NCBI GenBank assembly: GCA_016840025.1
Contig: JAEOTF010000457.1
Location: forward strand, 1-8,948
Source of the DNA: Candidatus Hodarchaeota archaeon
GTDB taxonomy: Archaea > Asgardarchaeota > Heimdallarchaeia > Hodarchaeales > YT1-039
Direction of reading: 5' to 3'
Length of the DNA stretch: 8,948 bases
Part shown: piece after piece, positions 171-6,002 of the stretch
Layout of the letters: each line of letters begins with the position of its first letter
Position numbering within the stretch: position 1 is the stretch's first letter
Notes under the pieces: model-generated
What the model saw: only the letters and a program-made list of their open reading frames with translations
What the model was told of the DNA's origin: nothing
The model's database searches: none
Position numbers and translations under genes: made by a program

Positions 171-701
171 TCAGCCTTCAATTGCTTCAAGCATTTCGTT
201 TGTTATACAAGAAAATAACTTTTCTACATTAACGCCTGTAAGTGCTGAAGTTTCGATATAGTGCTCTATGCTGTATTTCTTTTGCATCTTTTTTACTAAA
301 TCCATGTTTATGTTTTTCTCGAGATCACATTTTGTTGCACAAAGTACAATGATCGGTTTTTGACCACTGCTATGGAAAATATCAATCCATGAAGGCATCT
401 GTTCGAGTGTTTCGGGTCTCGTTGCTTCAAAACAGAAAAGAACGCCTTGTGTCCCAGTCACGTACAGAGGTAGCACCTGTTTGAACCTTTCCTCTCCTGC
501 AAAGTCCCACAGCTGTAAGGTAATTTCCGTTTTACCTGTTTCTCTGTGCGCAACAACACTTTTTAGCGCAAAGTCAACCCCAATGGTTTTTTTGGTATCC
601 GAGATAAATCGAGCATTCACATAGCGATGAACGAGACATGTTTTGCCAACCCATGTTTCACCGGTTACCACTACTTTGAAAACATCTTCGAGGGAACCCA
701 T
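171..701 (-). CDS. Rab/Ras-family small GTPase
   Basis: A single-domain GTPase of 176 residues, the usual size of a Ras/Rab core. Numbered from the chosen start, G1 is GETWVGKT (14-21), the switch I threonine is T39 in KKTIGVDF, G3 is WDFAGEERF (D66 to E70), G4 is TKCD (123-126) and G5 is ETSAL (151-155). Switch I and the WD..G.ERF block resemble Rab. G4 has Thr for the usual Asn, as in Rho/Rac proteins. The catalytic Gln of DTAGQ is Glu. No C-terminal cysteines are present, so membrane attachment by prenylation is not expected. The frame is open from a TTG at 758 and has ATGs at 713 and 701. I prefer 701 because GGAG (714-717) lies 12 bases upstream and a TATATC-like box lies near 731. It is followed after one base by another gene and is divergent from the Yip1-like unit. 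Confidence 0.9.
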   Translation of the reverse strand: MGSLEDVFKVVVTGETWVGKTCLVHRYVNARFISDTKKTIGVDFALKSVVAHRETGKTEITLQLWDFAGEERFKQVLPLYVTGTQGVLFCFEATRPETLEQMPSWIDIFHSSGQKPIIVLCATKCDLEKNINMDLVKKMQKKYSIEHYIETSALTGVNVEKLFSCITNEMLEAIEG

Positions 702-873
702 AGATGATTGCATCTCCAGAAAAGTGATATAGAATTGGGATAAGTTTTCTACTAACAAAGTAATGTAAGAATCAAATAAATATTTTCACGTGCTATCCAG
801 AAAACGCAATATTTTACAGTCAATATGAGAAGTGACTAATTATTTTTTATATAAACTTGCACTGTAATCGGAA
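702..873. promoter_or_regulatory. Divergent promoter region between the GTPase and Yip1-like units
   Basis: This 172-base AT-rich gap separates two divergent transcription units. For the minus strand, TATA-like stretches occur near 731 (CTATATCAC) and 781 (AATATTTATTT); either could serve the GTPase gene. For the plus strand the clear candidate is the box at 846-854, listed separately. A CACGTG hexamer sits at 787-792, with no further evidence that it is an operator. If the GTPase is translated from an earlier codon (713 or 758), part of this region would be coding. Confidence 0.5.
846..854 (+). promoter_or_regulatory. TATA box for the small ORF/Yip1-like unit
   Basis: TTTATATAA is a strong match to an archaeal TATA box. 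Its centre (about 850) predicts transcription start near 875, which coincides with the ATG at 874 of the 45-codon ORF. This would give a leaderless or nearly leaderless mRNA, a common archaeal arrangement. The element is nearly symmetrical, but on the opposite strand no start codon lies at the right distance. Confidence 0.55.
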
Positions 874-1011
874 ATGTCAACATATCGCCAGTTCTTTCTT
901 AGATTAATGAGAAGTGAAATAAAAAGAGAATTTCTGATGGATAAGATAAGATCAATAAGACAAAAAATAGAACTTATTCAAAGAGAAAGAGAAGCGTATA
1001 GGGGAACTTAA
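874..1011 (+). CDS. Small basic helical protein (45 residues) upstream of the Yip1-like gene
   Basis: The frame reads MSTYRQFFLRLMRSEIKR and then a run rich in Lys, Arg, Glu and Ile, ending EREAYRGT. It is probably one long charged helix, possibly a short coiled coil, with no cysteines or membrane segment. An in-frame stop (TAA, 865-867) fixes the upstream limit. Support for coding comes from two placements: the ATG lies where a TATA box at 846-854 predicts transcription start, and its TAA stop overlaps the next ATG by one base (TAATG), as in translationally coupled pairs. An alternative start is the ATG at 907. No family is recognised. It may be a genuine small protein or an upstream ORF that controls translation of the Yip1-like gene. 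Confidence 0.5.
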   Translation: MSTYRQFFLRLMRSEIKREFLMDKIRSIRQKIELIQREREAYRGT

Positions 1012-1991
1012 TGTCAGCAAAAAAACAGGTTTTTTGTACTGAATGCGGCGCCCAACTCCTACCGGACGCTAAGTTCTGCGGAATTTGTGGAGCTCAACTA
1101 CGTTTAGGTGTAGACACAGAAAAAACCCCTAGCCCTGTATCTCCACCAACAACGACTACAGATGATGATACAAGAGGATTAGGGGCGATACCGCGCTACG
1201 AACGTCCCTCACAGCCACCACCTCTTTATTCTGAACCAAAAATATCTACTCAATATCAGCAAGGTGGACCTCAACAACCCCAAGCTACACCACCTTATTA
1301 TGTGGGAACCCCAACTATTTGGCAACAACCCGAGCAGAAACTAAAACGTTTGTGGGAAACATTACTTTTATCACCTGCAAAAGGAATGCGCAAGGTTGCC
1401 CGTGGTCCAGACATAGGGATACCAATATTGGTACTTTTTCTCGTGGGACTTTGTACTGGGCTTGCATCTTACATTTACTTACAGCAGCGTGTTACCGTTA
1501 ACTGGGTAGATATGTCAGGAGAGCAGAAACTTATTTGGGATAGTGTTCCACTAAGTTTATTCGCCATAGGCATCTTATTTTCCATAATTTCATCCTTTGT
1601 AGCCTCTTTTTTACTATACGGGGTGATAGCATTTTTTGGAAAAACTGCACCCTATGAAAAATCCTTTAAACAAAGTTTTGCTATAATTGGTTATGCAGAA
1701 GTTGCAAGCCTTGTTTTTTCAGTCCTAAGTATACCGTTGATGCTCTTTAGAGAAGAAAAAACAATCGAATTCGGTTCTGATGCTGGTCAGATGGAGATCA
1801 TGGAGGAAATCACACAAATTTTAATTCTCCCCCTAGAATTTCAATTATTTACCCTGATATTTTTTGGTTGGAGTCTTGTATTGATTTATTTTGGAATAAA
1901 AGGATCATTTGTTAAACAAACAGAAGTTAATAAGGTTTTTATTATTTATGTGATCGGAAGAACGCTCCTACGAGTTCTGTTTAGTGTTTAA
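1011..1991 (+). CDS. Zinc-ribbon plus Yip1-like five-helix membrane protein
   Basis: The 326-residue protein has three parts. Residues 7-30 form a zinc ribbon with CxxC pairs C9/C12 and C23/C26. Residues 35-108 are a disordered linker rich in Pro, Gln and Thr. Residues 115-326 form a membrane domain opening with SPAKGMRKVARGPDIGIP, typical of the amphipathic entry to Yip1-family domains. About five hydrophobic segments follow (135-157, 178-209, 222-246, 268-296, 305-325), matching the usual Yip1 topology. In eukaryotes Yip1/YIPF proteins sit in ER and Golgi membranes and bind Rab GTPases; prokaryotic zinc-ribbon/Yip1 proteins are common but uncharacterised. The start has an AGGGG motif (999-1003 region) just upstream and overlaps the stop of the preceding small ORF. 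The location beside a divergent Rab-like gene makes a GTPase link attractive but unproven. The assignment rests on motif and topology; a more general Yip1-clan membrane protein is possible. Confidence 0.75.
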   Translation: MSAKKQVFCTECGAQLLPDAKFCGICGAQLRLGVDTEKTPSPVSPPTTTTDDDTRGLGAIPRYERPSQPPPLYSEPKISTQYQQGGPQQPQATPPYYVGTPTIWQQPEQKLKRLWETLLLSPAKGMRKVARGPDIGIPILVLFLVGLCTGLASYIYLQQRVTVNWVDMSGEQKLIWDSVPLSLFAIGILFSIISSFVASFLLYGVIAFFGKTAPYEKSFKQSFAIIGYAEVASLVFSVLSIPLMLFREEKTIEFGSDAGQMEIMEEITQILILPLEFQLFTLIFFGWSLVLIYFGIKGSFVKQTEVNKVFIIYVIGRTLLRVLFSV

Positions 1992-2038: not shown

Positions 2039-2932
2039 TTAGGGATGTTCAAATCGCCATCGGCATGAAACAAAACTATGCCAAATGGTTCTAACATCTG
2101 GGTTTTCCTTGCCCCAGATTAAGAAAATTGCGACCAGATGTTTACAGGCTTTAGCCATCCGAGAAGTTCGGCCTAGAAAATCCCCACAATCATGTATTAT
2201 TACCCTTTTTGTTCGGTCAATATTGATCAAGAAAACAGGTTTGAGCTCTCCTGTTTCCTTATCTTTTCCAAGATAATGGCCTTTGATTCCCATAGGAGAA
2301 AAAGAAAGATCAAATTTATCTTTTATAAGTTCTTGAGCTTTTTCAATTCGTCCTGAATAGGCAAAATCTTCTACTAGATACTCTTCCATCGCTTCAGAAG
2401 AAAGAGTAACGCTTTTTTCAAGAAAATCATTGGCAAGTTCAATCAATTCCTCAAATAAGCCATATTCTGTGCTTAATGTACGGGAACACATCTTGGAGGC
2501 AATTGCAAGGCTAATAAGAGCCTTTATATGGCTACATACCGCATCAAACTCTGCAAAGTCATCACATGTGCAGATTGCCTTACCTGTACTGGGTACAAGT
2601 GTACTAGTGTTCAATTCTTCACCACGAGGGATAAAAGTTCCTATGAAGTTAGAGTCAGATTCAAAAATGTCTATAACTCGTTTTTCAATATTTAACATCT
2701 CATAAGCTTGAAAATTCACTACAGAATCTGCCAAAGACTCTAGTGCGGATGATAATTCATCTTTCTCTACTGTCTCCGCTAATGAATCTATAATAAAATC
2801 GACAAGATTATCTTTTTTCAGCTTACTAAACCCACGAAATCCTTTCTTTCGACAAATATCCTTGAGATTTGGTACTTTGAGCTGTGAAAGAAGATAATGG
2901 ACTCTATCCTCCAAAAATGCTGGATCCGACAT
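2039..2932 (-). CDS. SWIM zinc-finger protein with N-terminal SAP/Rho_N-like domain
   Basis: A 297-residue soluble protein. Residues 13-50 (from LLSQLKVPNLKDICRKKG to the DNLVDFII segment) resemble the small helix-extended-helix SAP/Rho_N fold that binds nucleic acids. A canonical SWIM finger follows at 121-135: C121-x-C123, nine residues, C133-x-H135. A second SWIM-like motif at 247-265 has the form H-x-C-x13-C-x-H (H247, C249, C263, H265), with His replacing the first Cys. SWIM fingers are found in DNA-binding and protein-interacting factors, so a nucleic-acid role is likely but its target is unknown. The ATG at 2932 is fixed by an in-frame TGA just upstream. The gene lies 73 bases downstream of the Arf-like fusion on the same strand, and that gap contains a 7-bp inverted repeat and a TATA-like sequence, so it may have its own promoter. 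It converges with the Yip1-like gene. Confidence 0.75.
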   Translation of the reverse strand: MSDPAFLEDRVHYLLSQLKVPNLKDICRKKGFRGFSKLKKDNLVDFIIDSLAETVEKDELSSALESLADSVVNFQAYEMLNIEKRVIDIFESDSNFIGTFIPRGEELNTSTLVPSTGKAICTCDDFAEFDAVCSHIKALISLAIASKMCSRTLSTEYGLFEELIELANDFLEKSVTLSSEAMEEYLVEDFAYSGRIEKAQELIKDKFDLSFSPMGIKGHYLGKDKETGELKPVFLINIDRTKRVIIHDCGDFLGRTSRMAKACKHLVAIFLIWGKENPDVRTIWHSFVSCRWRFEHP

Positions 2933-3005: not shown

Positions 3006-4208
3006 TTATACGAGTAAGGGATCAGAGAGTGTGATTTGACTTTTAGGAACATACCAGCCGCCTTTTTTCTTGATGATAACGCCTTCTGTGACCAGTTGTT
3101 CAAGCACGTCTTCAAGCACCTGTGCTGAGAGATTTGTAAGTTTTTGTATGCCATCAATTCGAAGCGCAGAACGGACTTGAGAAAACGCAAACATAACTCT
3201 GAGTGGAGCTGGGGCTTGTGGTTTGAGAATTGGGATTTCCGATTTAAATGTTTTAGAAAGAAATTCAAGTAAATTTTCATCAGAAAGAGCTTCAGGGAGG
3301 GTACTAGCCCAATTGACAACTTGTTTGGCAATAGAACGAGTCTGACTAATGGAATCCAGCTTATCCACTATCGCGGCACAAATAAGCCGATCGGGACTAA
3401 GGGACGGGTGTTTGGTTTTTAAAATATCCATCTGTTTACTTTCAAAAACGATACGATGGTTACCGAAAGTGATATCGGCTAAGTGCTCGGTTTGGCTGAA
3501 AACCTGACTACCGAAACTACTTATAGCTGAAAAAAAGCCAGAGAAGATCGCACTGTCTACTTCAGTTCCACCCATAGTAGCTGCTGCTAATGGAACTCCA
3601 AAATCCGTGAATAGTACGATATTCTTTAGATGAATTCTTTCTGTTTCTTTCTGTTGCAAAACTTTCTCAGTAAACCACTCCCATGCTTCTTCCACGCCGT
3701 CTCCAAATTTTGCTGATGTCAAATATAAACCAAAGCTGCGGGGGCGCGCCATCATGAATCTTTCTAAGTGGAGTTCTGCAATGATTTCTTCAAAGGACAA
3801 TGTATTTGGTAAATCTTTCTTATTGACGATAAAACAGAATACCGCTTCTTGCTGAATCCAGTCATTTACTTTATCGAGCCATTTTCGGGCCTCAACCATT
3901 TTAAGAGGATCAGCGGAATCAAGCACCCATATGACGCCATCACATTTACGGAGGTGAGGTTCCCACAAGTGTTCTGCGAATACTGATTGACCACCTATGT
4001 CATACACAGCAACACGGGAATCAGAATCGATTTTATATGTTTCTACGTTCACACCCATAGTCGCACGGGTTTTTATTGGTTTTGTAGGTTCTTTGATGCG
4101 TTTTAGAAAAGTAGTTTTGCCGGCATTCTGAAGACCAATCACAACAATCCTCGCATCGAAATCCGGCATAGTAGAACGCATTGTTTTTACACACATTATA
4201 TACTTCAT
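3006..4208 (-). CDS. Arf-family GTPase fused to longin/roadblock-like and winged-helix domains
   Basis: A 400-residue three-part protein. Residues 18-187 are an Arf/Sar-like GTPase with G1 GLQNAGKTT (25-33), switch I TRATMGVNVE (48-57), G3 DIGGQ (70-74), G4 NKKD (129-132) and G5 TSAK (164-167). All key residues including the catalytic Gln are intact. Residues about 195-305 read as strand-strand-helix-strands-helix (IVLFTDFGVPLAA, then a helix from DSAIFSGFF, then ADITFGNHRIVFES), an order that fits a longin-like fold better than roadblock. Residues 333-388 look like a winged helix ending in the wing GVIIKKKGGWYV. Classical Arf proteins stop near 180 residues, so the extra 210 are a real fusion. 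Membrane-binding N-terminal myristoylation (Met-Gly) is absent. Starts at residues 1, 5, 10 and 14 are possible; TATATAA (4196-4202) favours residue 14 (4169), while A/T boxes near 4245 and 4262 favour residue 1. The middle-domain assignment is inference from secondary-structure pattern. Confidence 0.85.
   Translation of the reverse strand: MKYIMCVKTMRSTMPDFDARIVVIGLQNAGKTTFLKRIKEPTKPIKTRATMGVNVETYKIDSDSRVAVYDIGGQSVFAEHLWEPHLRKCDGVIWVLDSADPLKMVEARKWLDKVNDWIQQEAVFCFIVNKKDLPNTLSFEEIIAELHLERFMMARPRSFGLYLTSAKFGDGVEEAWEWFTEKVLQQKETERIHLKNIVLFTDFGVPLAAATMGGTEVDSAIFSGFFSAISSFGSQVFSQTEHLADITFGNHRIVFESKQMDILKTKHPSLSPDRLICAAIVDKLDSISQTRSIAKQVVNWASTLPEALSDENLLEFLSKTFKSEIPILKPQAPAPLRVMFAFSQVRSALRIDGIQKLTNLSAQVLEDVLEQLVTEGVIIKKKGGWYVPKSQITLSDPLLV
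4196..4202 (-). promoter_or_regulatory. TATA-like box that bears on the Arf-fusion start
   Basis: On the minus strand TATATAA lies within the first codons of the longest frame of the Arf-like gene. Its position predicts transcription start near 4173, four bases before the ATG at 4169 (residue 14), from which the protein would begin MPDFDARIVVIGLQNAG. That would be a compact, near-leaderless start like many archaeal genes. It competes with A/T-rich boxes further upstream (about 4241-4249 and 4258-4266), which would support the ATG at 4208. Confidence 0.3.
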
Positions 4209-4390: not shown

Positions 4391-5641
4391 TCAATTGAGA
4401 AGGGAACGCAAAGTGGACGATGGAACACGAATGAGGTAGTTTAGTCCCCCAGATGCACAATACTGTGAGACTAGAATCAGTCCCAATCCCCTTGCCCATA
4501 GAATCGCATCATAAACATAATTGACTAATTTTTCACGAGTAATTCCGCGGAATAGATGCGCTAACCGCTCTTCTGTCCTCTGGAATAACTCAGCATGCGG
4601 CACATGGAGCTGATCCGCACCTAGTTCACCTAGTGCCCTTAGAAGAGCTAGATATTGTGTTGGTCCCTCAAGAGTAGGAGAATTATCTTCTGAATGAACG
4701 ATTTTCAATCCTAAATCAGCTAATGAAAGCCCACCAGGCATAGATATACCAAAACGAGATGGGTTCAAGCCACTTTTCTCAAAATATTGGCGAACAGAGT
4801 CAGCGGTAATTAATACCGTGGTTGATCTTATACGACGACGAAGCAAGTAATCATCGGTTAAAAAACTGCGTAACTCTGCCTTAATCTCAGAAACATCTGT
4901 GGTTCCATGCAAGAAAAATAACATATCGCCAAAGAACTCGACAATTGTAGGGGGAGAAGCGAGTTCAAGAAAATCTCCATCAACAATTCCATTGAGAATG
5001 TGATGAGCCAATCGCATACCGTCTCGTTCATCAAAATCGATTGGAATCGCTGTTGACTGAGAATGATTCTTTGTATGTCGTAAAGTTCTAGTGACGGTTT
5101 TCTGATCGGTAAATAAGAGAACAGGGAAAAAAACCGGGTGTATATGCGTTAAGTTGGAAAGCACAAACTGAAGAATATCGATAAGAAAGCTATTACGAGT
5201 AGCGAGTTTCCATATTACAATGAAATCTCGGTTGTGCAATGCTTCTAGTAGCTCAGAAAGGATGTCCGCTACATTTAATGCAATTTTCACGTGATCATAA
5301 AGAGTGAATTCTGCATCAGGCTTCATTTTTTCCGCAATTTTATCCATCCTTACAAGGACTTCCTCAAAATGCGATTTAACTCCTCCACCAGTCCACTCCT
5401 TTAATTCTCTGTCGGAAGCCAATGTTTGTAGCAGGAGATCAACAACTTCTCTCCAAGAGTAAGGATCGCTAGGATCAGTTTCGAGGAAGGAACGGGATGT
5501 AAAATCAACGGTAATAGCCTTTTTTTCGGGAGGGATAGACGCACGAATGGTAGATTCTACCTTCAATGATTGAAAAGCTTCTAGTAAAACTTCTGGAATA
5601 CTATTAGAATTAGAACTTGTTAAAGGATAAAAAAGATACAT
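4391..5641 (-). CDS. Unrecognised 416-residue protein, faintly ATPase-like
   Basis: Not confidently recognised. Numbered from the ATG at 5641, the protein has a soluble alpha/beta pattern. It shows a hydrophobic strand ITVDFTS (43-49), a strand HPVFFPVLLFTDQ (168-180) that sits like a Walker B strand, then IPIDFDERDGMRLAHHIL (199-216), which resembles the segment after the ATPase core in STAND/AAA-type archaeal ATPases. A helical C-terminal part (about 345-416) could be winged-helix. No P-loop (GxxxxGKS/T) is present, so if related it is a non-nucleotide-binding relative or a truncated one. The frame is open back to 5875, with a second ATG at 5731, but the extra N-terminus is encoded by a GC-rich patch unlike the rest, so 5641 is preferred; neither start has a good ribosome-binding site. 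It lies upstream of the Arf-like fusion on the same strand across a 182-base gap. Confidence 0.6.
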   Translation of the reverse strand: MYLFYPLTSSNSNSIPEVLLEAFQSLKVESTIRASIPPEKKAITVDFTSRSFLETDPSDPYSWREVVDLLLQTLASDRELKEWTGGGVKSHFEEVLVRMDKIAEKMKPDAEFTLYDHVKIALNVADILSELLEALHNRDFIVIWKLATRNSFLIDILQFVLSNLTHIHPVFFPVLLFTDQKTVTRTLRHTKNHSQSTAIPIDFDERDGMRLAHHILNGIVDGDFLELASPPTIVEFFGDMLFFLHGTTDVSEIKAELRSFLTDDYLLRRRIRSTTVLITADSVRQYFEKSGLNPSRFGISMPGGLSLADLGLKIVHSEDNSPTLEGPTQYLALLRALGELGADQLHVPHAELFQRTEERLAHLFRGITREKLVNYVYDAILWARGLGLILVSQYCASGGLNYLIRVPSSTLRSLLN

Positions 5642-5813
5642 ACAAGAGCTTTGTGTGCCCCCTCGGTCACGTAGGGCGGCTAAACAACGGACAGGTGAGT
5701 GAGTGGCGGATGGGGGGCGGGAATTCTGCATCCGAGATGATTCTCCAGAAATACGTTTGTTGTGATTTCTCTTCTCTAAGAAGCTGTTCTCCCTATCTTG
5801 TACGCTTCTTTGC

Positions 5814-6002
5814 TTATAAGCACCTAAACAAACGCTCCTTTCCAATTTCGGGCGGGAAATAGAAATTGAGATCAATTTTCCAGCCCTTTCTACTGAATAC
5901 TTCCCATTCTGGATTTAAATCATATTTCTTCAATTTTTGTCGGAATTTAGTCGAGACTTCGCCTTTTTGTCGGACAGAATGAGAGTACAGCGAAAGTGAC
6001 AT
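5814..6002 (-). CDS. Possible small basic protein (62 residues), unrecognised
   Basis: The frame starts with ATG at 6002 (MSLSLYSHSVRQKGEV) and ends at a TAA within the GCTTATAAGC palindrome. A TTG at 6023 is an alternative start. The composition looks protein-like: a basic N-terminal half, then LNPEWEVFSRKGWKIDLNFY, which reads like alternating beta strands, then PPEIGKERLFRCL. A minus-strand TTAAATTTA near 6048-6056 could supply a promoter. No family is recognised and no good ribosome-binding site is present. It overlaps the extended frame of the downstream gene by 62 bases, which argues that the downstream gene starts later. It may be a real small gene, a remnant or chance. Confidence 0.3.
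   Translation of the reverse strand: MSLSLYSHSVRQKGEVSTKFRQKLKKYDLNPEWEVFSRKGWKIDLNFYFPPEIGKERLFRCL

Follow-up and report, generated by a model that had tools for sequence, protein, structure and literature searches.

Arf-family GTPase, longin domain and winged helix in a single archaeal chain

The SR-beta/SR-alpha system pairs an Arf-like GTPase with the longin domain of another chain; it is made of two chains, with SR-beta anchored in the membrane, and has no winged helix. In Rag/Gtr GTPases and LokiRagO (PDB 8yl2), a domain of the roadblock/longin class follows the GTPase at the C-terminus; this domain is a roadblock and not a longin, the GTPase is of the Rag type and there is again no winged helix. 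Tri-longin exchange factors carry three longins per chain and form heterodimers; among them, MON1 lacks a GTPase and has three longin domains, which form a Rab7 exchange platform. Pairing is common for longin and roadblock domains, and winged helices often serve as protein modules.

In the portions of the literature available, Mon1-Ccz1 is described as a tri-longin Rab7 exchange factor, and longin/roadblock pairs as established platforms for small GTPases (PMC10933270). In Npr2/Npr3 (NPRL2/NPRL3) of GATOR1/SEACIT, a longin is followed by winged helices (PMC3521125, accessible text); these proteins have a triad of wHTH domains and no GTPase on the chain, and belong to a complex acting on a Rag GTPase. 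The Arf-longin fusion of Asgard archaea was already in print by 2016: the accessible text of PMC4917890 gives 41 longin-like domains for Lokiarchaeum, five of them fused to Arf-like GTPases. For MK-D1, that of PMC10933270 gives 74 small GTPases, 26 of which are combined with roadblock or longin domains. PMC10933270 also marks some domains “?”, their function being unknown, and winged helices could be among them; neither “winged” nor “helix-turn-helix” appears in its main text. No archaeal fusion of longin, winged helix and GTPase was found in the available parts of the open-licence literature searched.

We analysed a gene located in a window of 8,948 nucleotides (positions 1 to 8,948 of contig JAEOTF010000457.1, Candidatus Hodarchaeota archaeon). 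Like the fusions of Lokiarchaeum and MK-D1, as far as the accessible text of PMC4917890 and PMC10933270 describes them, its product has an Arf-type GTPase followed by one longin, but it also carries a winged helix, which none of the Asgard Arf-longin fusions inspected has, its GTPase groups with stand-alone Arfs and its longin contains an extra insert. With one longin in 396 aa, it falls outside the tri-longin exchange factors (MON1/CCZ1/FUZ/INTU/HPS). It shares the order longin then winged helix with Npr2/Npr3 and differs from them in having a GTPase and a single winged helix; no search returned a sequence match to Npr2/Npr3, and the likeness is one of analogy, not of kinship.

Gene architecture and the GTPase domain

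The gene and its GTPase features are as follows, residues being numbered on the 396-aa form of the protein (the 400-aa form adds 4).

3006..4208, minus strand: whole gene for the Arf-longin-winged helix chain (400 aa if begun at the first ATG)
3651..4157, minus strand: Arf-family GTPase domain, residues 14-182 (Pfam PF00025, E 6.6e-29; PDB sequence matches; Foldseek)
4110..4136, minus strand: G1/P-loop GLQNAGKTT (from the sequence; same in P0005)
4053..4070, minus strand: switch I including its threonine, TRATMG (from the sequence)
3987..4001, minus strand: G3/switch II DIGGQ (from the sequence)
3813..3824, minus strand: G4 NKKD (from the sequence)
3708..3719, minus strand: G5 TSAK (from the sequence)

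The open reading frame comprises 400 codons and a stop. The real start is probably codon 5, giving 396 aa, and the database copy of the protein (P0004, 396 aa) begins there. The domain order is Arf GTPase (14-182), longin (190-316) and winged helix (330-384). All three domains are spanned by a second protein, P0005, with 60% identity and 98% query coverage, encoded on a distinct 9,561-base contig named Promethearchaeota archaeon; the three-domain reading frame is therefore neither a chance arrangement nor a misassembly. The initial annotation had proposed a complete GTPase half followed by a longin/roadblock-like domain and a winged helix, and suggested that the chain could be an ancestral or parallel form of the Rag and SR assemblies. 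The three-domain chain is confirmed, and the interpretation partly supported: the domains were right, the roadblock was wrong and ancestry is unsupported.

AlphaFold2, given 27 sequences drawn from the 38 ids P0004-P0041, produced a model with a mean pLDDT of 77.0 and a pTM of 0.52, which we read for domain folds and not for domain orientation; an earlier single-sequence model was poor (pLDDT 48.7). The model bears out Arf, longin and winged helix on one chain, and no refuting topology was seen. The best 50 of 1920 matches in a Foldseek search against the PDB, which include the Asgard HodArfR1/GerdArfR1, the best 50 of 1000 from VIA-align (span 12-185) and the best 50 of 1421 from BFVD were GTPases or matches taking in the GTPase part. 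Since these top matches all bear a GTPase, they are silent on the longin and the winged helix. LokiRagO ranked 48th in Foldseek, with 307 columns aligned at an rmsd of 16.8.

The GTPase half is complete, as had been read from the sequence. Its Pfam Arf score is 101 bits (curated cut-off 22.3), ARF1 and other Arfs are its PDB sequence matches, and G1 to G5 are intact, placing it in the Arf family; Gtr1_RagA scored 27.4 bits, above its cut-off of 22, and SR-beta (PF09439) weakly, at 28.4 bits for a cut-off of 25. Because all five motifs are present, including the DIGGQ glutamine, which we take to be the catalytic one in Arfs, the GTP switch looks competent from its sequence. None of the four candidate start methionines is followed by Gly2 (MK, MC, MR, MP), and P0005 starts MSNVS. 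The protein is therefore predicted to have no classical myristoylated helix, and by its sequence would not be a membrane-inserting Arf of the Arf1 type, with an N-terminal myristoylated amphipathic helix, while its place in the wider Arf family stands; this helix is missing from some Arf-like proteins too.

The longin domain and the winged helix

The longin part of the gene comprises the following features.

3249..3629, minus strand: longin domain, residues 190-316, b-b-a-b-b-b-a-a (AlphaFold2 topology; Asgard module by BLAST; family profile)
3495..3629, minus strand: longin b1-b2-a1, best kept of the longin stretches compared (37/45 identical with P0005)
3393..3428, minus strand: poorly kept b4-b5 insert of the longin, residues 257-268 (missing from the other aligned Arf-longin fusions)

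In the model, residues 190-316 have the longin topology b-b-a-b-b-b-a-a, without an N-terminal helix and with two C-terminal helices, at a pLDDT of 54-62 in the blocks around a1 and 56-87 in the remaining 10-residue blocks. A longin differs from a roadblock in lacking its N-terminal helix and having a second C-terminal helix (PMC10933270, accessible text), and we assign residues 190-316 to the longins because the helices of the model fit this distinction. The initial annotation had placed a “longin/roadblock-like” domain at 195-305 (400-aa form): the longin stands, with limits now set at 190-316 (396-aa form), and the roadblock, with its N-terminal helix and lone C-terminal one, does not.

For comparisons we used 227 genomes from the phylum of G001, whose Asgard identity we inferred from Arf content. 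G001 has 56 Arf matches (best 5.7e-44); at a loose cut-off 12 of 14 control genomes matched as well, and at 1e-15 all 15 group members tested matched and none of the 14 controls. The longin of the window protein matched an Asgard module in 131 of the 227 genomes (E <= 1e-3); over a little more than 60 residues at its start, the identity reaches up to 47%. Inspected by eye at 30 loci, this module occurs as a stand-alone protein, in GTPase fusions, in receptor-like membrane proteins and in a HEAT-repeat protein. At L019, L021-L025, L028-L030, L037 and L038, the same module accompanies an apparent extracellular part and a membrane helix (by eye).

The longin of the window alone matched no Pfam family. 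A family profile was built from 16 Asgard longins picked by hand. Nine of the 16 matched PF19036, the first longin of FUZ, MON1 and HPS1 (best 2.9e-6), two matched PF19031 (INTU, CCZ1, HPS4), one Sybindin and one the clathrin adaptor small chain; seven unrelated families were matched by one member each. Against the PDB, the profile yielded 26 matches at E <= 10, with human MON1A first (E 8.5e-4) and only four MON1 chains below E 0.01. By name, 20 of the 26 are MON1, TRAPP subunits, AP sigma, zeta-/delta-COP or VAMP7, which we take to be longin-fold proteins, the other six being CorA (three), Abraxas (two) and one designed protein. The reversed-sequence control gave 11 PDB matches, none of them a longin (best E 0.14). 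When 29 Arf-longin proteins were searched with Pfam, four matched PF19036 (best 2.6e-4) and two PF19031; as a contrary weak signal, two of the 29 matched MAPKK1_Int (best E 0.004), a family of roadblock type. A two-sequence profile of the whole tail matched two topoisomerase chains in the PDB (E 0.0012 and 0.0014), presumably by chance. The predicted longin identity thus draws on the wider Asgard family together with the model, the topology being found in the latter and the kinship with known longins through the family profile. Judged by these profile matches, the nearest eukaryotic kin would be the first longin domain of MON1/FUZ/HPS1, that of MON1 being the nearest in the PDB.

The C-terminal part carries the features below.

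3045..3209, minus strand: winged helix, residues 330-384 (AlphaFold2; sub-threshold Pfam; profile matches)
3087..3131, minus strand: presumed recognition helix a3, acidic (4/15 identical with P0005)
3045..3086, minus strand: wing hairpin, basic and conserved, KKKGGWYVP / RKRGGWYVP (10/14 identical with P0005)

The model places helices at 330-339, 347-354 and 358-370 and strands at 375-377 and 380-382 (block pLDDT 66-89), that is, a winged helix with its HTH core of three helices and subsequent b-hairpin wing, from an alignment holding essentially only two sequences in this part. The winged helix initially annotated at 333-388 thus holds up, at 330-384 (334-388 in the 400-aa form). Its presumed recognition helix has a net charge of -3 in the window protein. 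Searching the two winged-helix sequences against Pfam gave 12 and 6 families, all below cut-off, of which 9 and 3 respectively are HTH or winged-helix families by name or recall; the reversed sequences gave 0 and 1. The best single match was DUF4423 (P0005, 3e-4), by its name a family of unknown function. A two-sequence winged-helix profile gave marginal matches in 32 of the 227 genomes (E <= 0.01); 12 of these loci were fetched and 10 scanned with Pfam, leaving out L107 and L111. An HTH or winged-helix model overlapped the matched stretch in seven of the 10 (L102, L103, L104, L106, L109, L112, L113); in the other three (L105, L108, L110), the scan showed nothing beyond ferredoxin domains in another part of the protein or a weak match to something unrelated. 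Searched alone by sequence against the PDB, the winged helix had no credible match (best E 0.17).

By eye, two longin proteins without a GTPase, L017 and L032, have possible HTH/winged-helix parts and possible Npr2/3-like layouts. L032 matched PF19036 (2.1e-5) and TrmB (0.085), L017 was without Pfam support, and both were missed by the two-sequence winged-helix profile.

Distribution and origin

A protein search with the C-terminal half (827 candidates) returned only the window protein and P0005 at E <= 1e-3. A profile of both (7997 candidates scored, E <= 1e-20) returned at least five proteins, namely this pair plus three Arf-longin proteins, 302-316 aa long, that lack the last part. Among the best 120 of 195 protein relatives at E <= 1e-15, only the window protein and P0005 are about 396 aa long with a full match; of the other relatives we read P0009, P0039, P0040 and P0042, leaving out eukaryotic proteins of 566 and 571 aa. 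In the 227 genomes, searches with the C-terminal and whole-protein queries scored few candidates per genome. Among the matches listed, the furthest with the C-terminal query ends at position 158, eight residues into the winged helix, and with the whole-protein query one row reaches residue 350 across two stop codons, the others ending by 328. One scan of genome contigs and one of viral contigs gave no relative; a second genome-contig scan gave at least one locus. The winged helix is thus a rare part, with two proteins so far. The same architecture, proposed to be sought in other Asgard genomes, was met once elsewhere (P0005, Promethearchaeota) and not among the matches listed for the 227 genomes.

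To the two-domain form we applied an Arf-longin profile (five rows, 299 positions, 10 candidates scored per genome), which matched in 128 of the 227 genomes at E <= 1e-20, some rows covering the GTPase only; at least 46 genomes have a row extending to at least position 260 and so through most of the longin, usually in reading frames of about 300-350 aa. Across 20 regions with long Arf reading frames, Arf and longin were found together in 10 at a loose cut-off, and the winged-helix profile, a narrow one of two sequences, matched none of the 20, so that these were set aside as further three-domain proteins. Four of the seven reading frames viewed (L141, L144, L146, L147) have long charged or low-complexity tails by eye. 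Reversed orders also occur: L148 has a longin then an Arf, and L020 a longin then a Ras/Rab-like GTPase (class assigned by eye). At L148 (927-2387) the longin-Arf part is followed by a further domain, GAF-like by eye. L001 (WJJB01000460.1) is titled Bathyarchaeota, but its genome is the one with 56 Arf matches, G001, and the phylum group looks Asgard, possibly pointing to a mislabelled MAG.

We also looked for a stand-alone Arf with an adjoining longin-winged helix gene and found none within about 3.5 kb at the eight loci read (L072, L073, L074, L076, L078, L080, L082, L083) of the 13 closest stand-alone Arf loci. A second Arf adjoins at seven of the eight, L076 having a Ras-type GTPase and another gene. 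These seven (L072-L074, L078, L080, L082, L083), from seven genomes of one group, have tandem stand-alone Arfs beside an apparent threonyl-tRNA synthetase (by eye).

A GTPase tree was computed from 48 of 53 domains, L133, L129, L002, P0040 and P0045 having been removed ahead of the AU test. The GTPases of the window protein and P0005 join ten stand-alone Arfs with a support of 99/93, and a quick tree with all 53 domains recovered the same group. Forcing all longin-bearing Arfs into one clade cost 11.8 log units (p-AU 0.043, a marginal value for a group named once a first tree had been seen). In the longin tree one clade of fused longins had a p-AU of 0.18, which does not decide between one and several fusions; after P0005, the nearest longins by path are three from proteins without a GTPase. 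The peptidase of the window is closest to those of G050 and G053 (67% and 66%), genomes carrying those stand-alone Arfs; this identity and the Promethearchaeota name of P0005 fit an Asgard origin. The regions around the peptidase orthologues in G050, G053 and G060 (19.9, 4.5 and 16.4 kb) have no match to the window other than the peptidase itself, and a search with P0003 for a conserved neighbourhood, run without a positive control, gave 0 of 227 genomes.

Because the GTPase groups with stand-alone Arfs and not with the Arf-longin fusions, a separate, lineage-restricted fusion is favoured, and the GTPase grouping, longin kin and peptidase kin together indicate, at the level of sequence, that the three domains probably came together in or close to the lineage of those stand-alone Arfs; alternatively, the stand-alone Arfs may have lost a longin. 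Of the two origins first suggested, parallel is therefore likelier than ancestral, given that only two three-domain proteins were found and that the GTPase groups with stand-alone Arfs.

Elsewhere in the window, 174-758 (minus strand) is a Ras/Rab-like GTPase gene (Pfam Ras, 4.2e-38). Its neighbour at 1011-1988 (plus strand) codes for a protein that has a zinc ribbon and a Yip1 domain (Pfam, 7.2e-16); in eukaryotes, Yip1 proteins bind Rabs. The Arf gene is followed immediately downstream by 2042-2932 (minus strand), whose product has a SWIM zinc finger (E 2.6e-4) and an N-terminus weakly resembling Rho_N. The 494-aa reading frame at 4394-5875 (minus strand) had no Pfam/NCBIfam match and, in a search without a positive control, none in the 227 genomes.

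Proposed mechanism and its rivals

We lean slightly towards a reading in which the protein would be a GTP switch seated on its own longin platform, with a winged helix serving as a docking module, for protein rather than DNA, that was added in a restricted lineage to an Arf of the stand-alone type. The longin would pair with its counterpart in a second chain or in a different Asgard longin protein, and this pair would contact the attached GTPase in a nucleotide-dependent manner, as a built-in regulator or an effector seat. The winged helix would dock a partner, more probably a protein, or an anionic surface in contact with the basic wing, than a specific DNA. It would have been gained in a restricted lineage, as an extension of the Arf-longin arrangement widespread in Asgard archaea, probably starting from an Arf of the stand-alone kind, and the three-domain chain would not be a remnant from the ancestry of the Rag or SR assemblies. 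Identity with P0005, over stretches picked by hand, is 82% for longin b1-b2-a1, 71% for the wing, 64% for the GTPase and 27% for the recognition helix; b1-b2-a1 being better kept than the whole GTPase domain points to a constrained longin interface. That GTPase and longin have been joined repeatedly, in either order, suggests that the Arf and longin domains work together, and the profile nearness of the longin family to MON1, with its Rab7 exchange platform of longins, also speaks for a platform. The longin may act on the GTPase of its own chain.

The winged helix could instead bind DNA, with the Arf-longin part sensing state, making the protein a GTP-switched DNA-binding regulator; the sub-threshold Pfam matches do include the transcription-factor families Rrf2, GntR and TrmB, and the wing is basic and conserved. 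Against this, the presumed recognition helix is acidic and only 4 of its 15 residues are shared with P0005; an acidic, variable a3 beside a basic, conserved wing fits docking through the wing and not DNA reading by a3. Longin proteins of the Npr2/Npr3 type also carry wHTH domains, for which chromosome tethering has been speculated (PMC3521125, accessible text), and we regard the DNA-binding regulator as unlikely. The last 55 residues might also be a small helical adaptor with a hairpin instead of a true winged helix, given the lack of a Pfam family at cut-off or a significant PDB sequence match and an alignment two sequences deep; the three modelled helices and b-hairpin at pLDDT 66-89, the HTH/winged-helix overlap in seven of 10 profile matches and the contrast between reversed (0 and 1) and forward (12 and 6) searches make this very unlikely.

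The other two readings concern history and family. An ancestral, once widespread three-domain form, from which stand-alone Arfs and longin proteins split off later, would agree with the recurrence of Arf-longin fusions in many of the 227 genomes, with a longin tree that does not reject one fused clade (p-AU 0.18) and with the marginal GTPase rejection (0.043); it is quite unlikely in view of the 99/93 grouping with stand-alone Arfs and of there being only two three-domain proteins, none listed in the 227 genomes running through the winged helix. A Rag-like GTPase with a C-terminal roadblock domain could be read from the Gtr1_RagA score, the LokiRagO match and the MAPKK1_Int matches of two of 29 relatives, but Arf at 101 bits lies far above Gtr1_RagA at 27.4, the helices of the model are arranged as in a longin and LokiRagO aligns at an rmsd of 16.8. 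We rejected this roadblock/Rag reading on topology and Pfam scores, despite the weak MAPKK1_Int matches, and hold it to be extremely improbable.

The reading that we favour, a GTP switch with its own longin platform and a docking winged helix, admits a further comparison that we also think unlikely: an Arf, a MON1-type longin and an Npr2/3-like winged helix in one chain might parallel what eukaryotes distribute over separate subunits (Rag/Rab with GATOR1/Mon1-Ccz1). With the winged helix, the known Asgard Arf-longin theme gains a third domain, and the protein offers a compact single chain for asking whether an Asgard longin regulates its fused GTPase. Its longin appears related to those controlling eukaryotic membrane-traffic switches, and, through their profile matches to MON1, Asgard longins may point to where the Rab7 exchange factors obtained their first longin.
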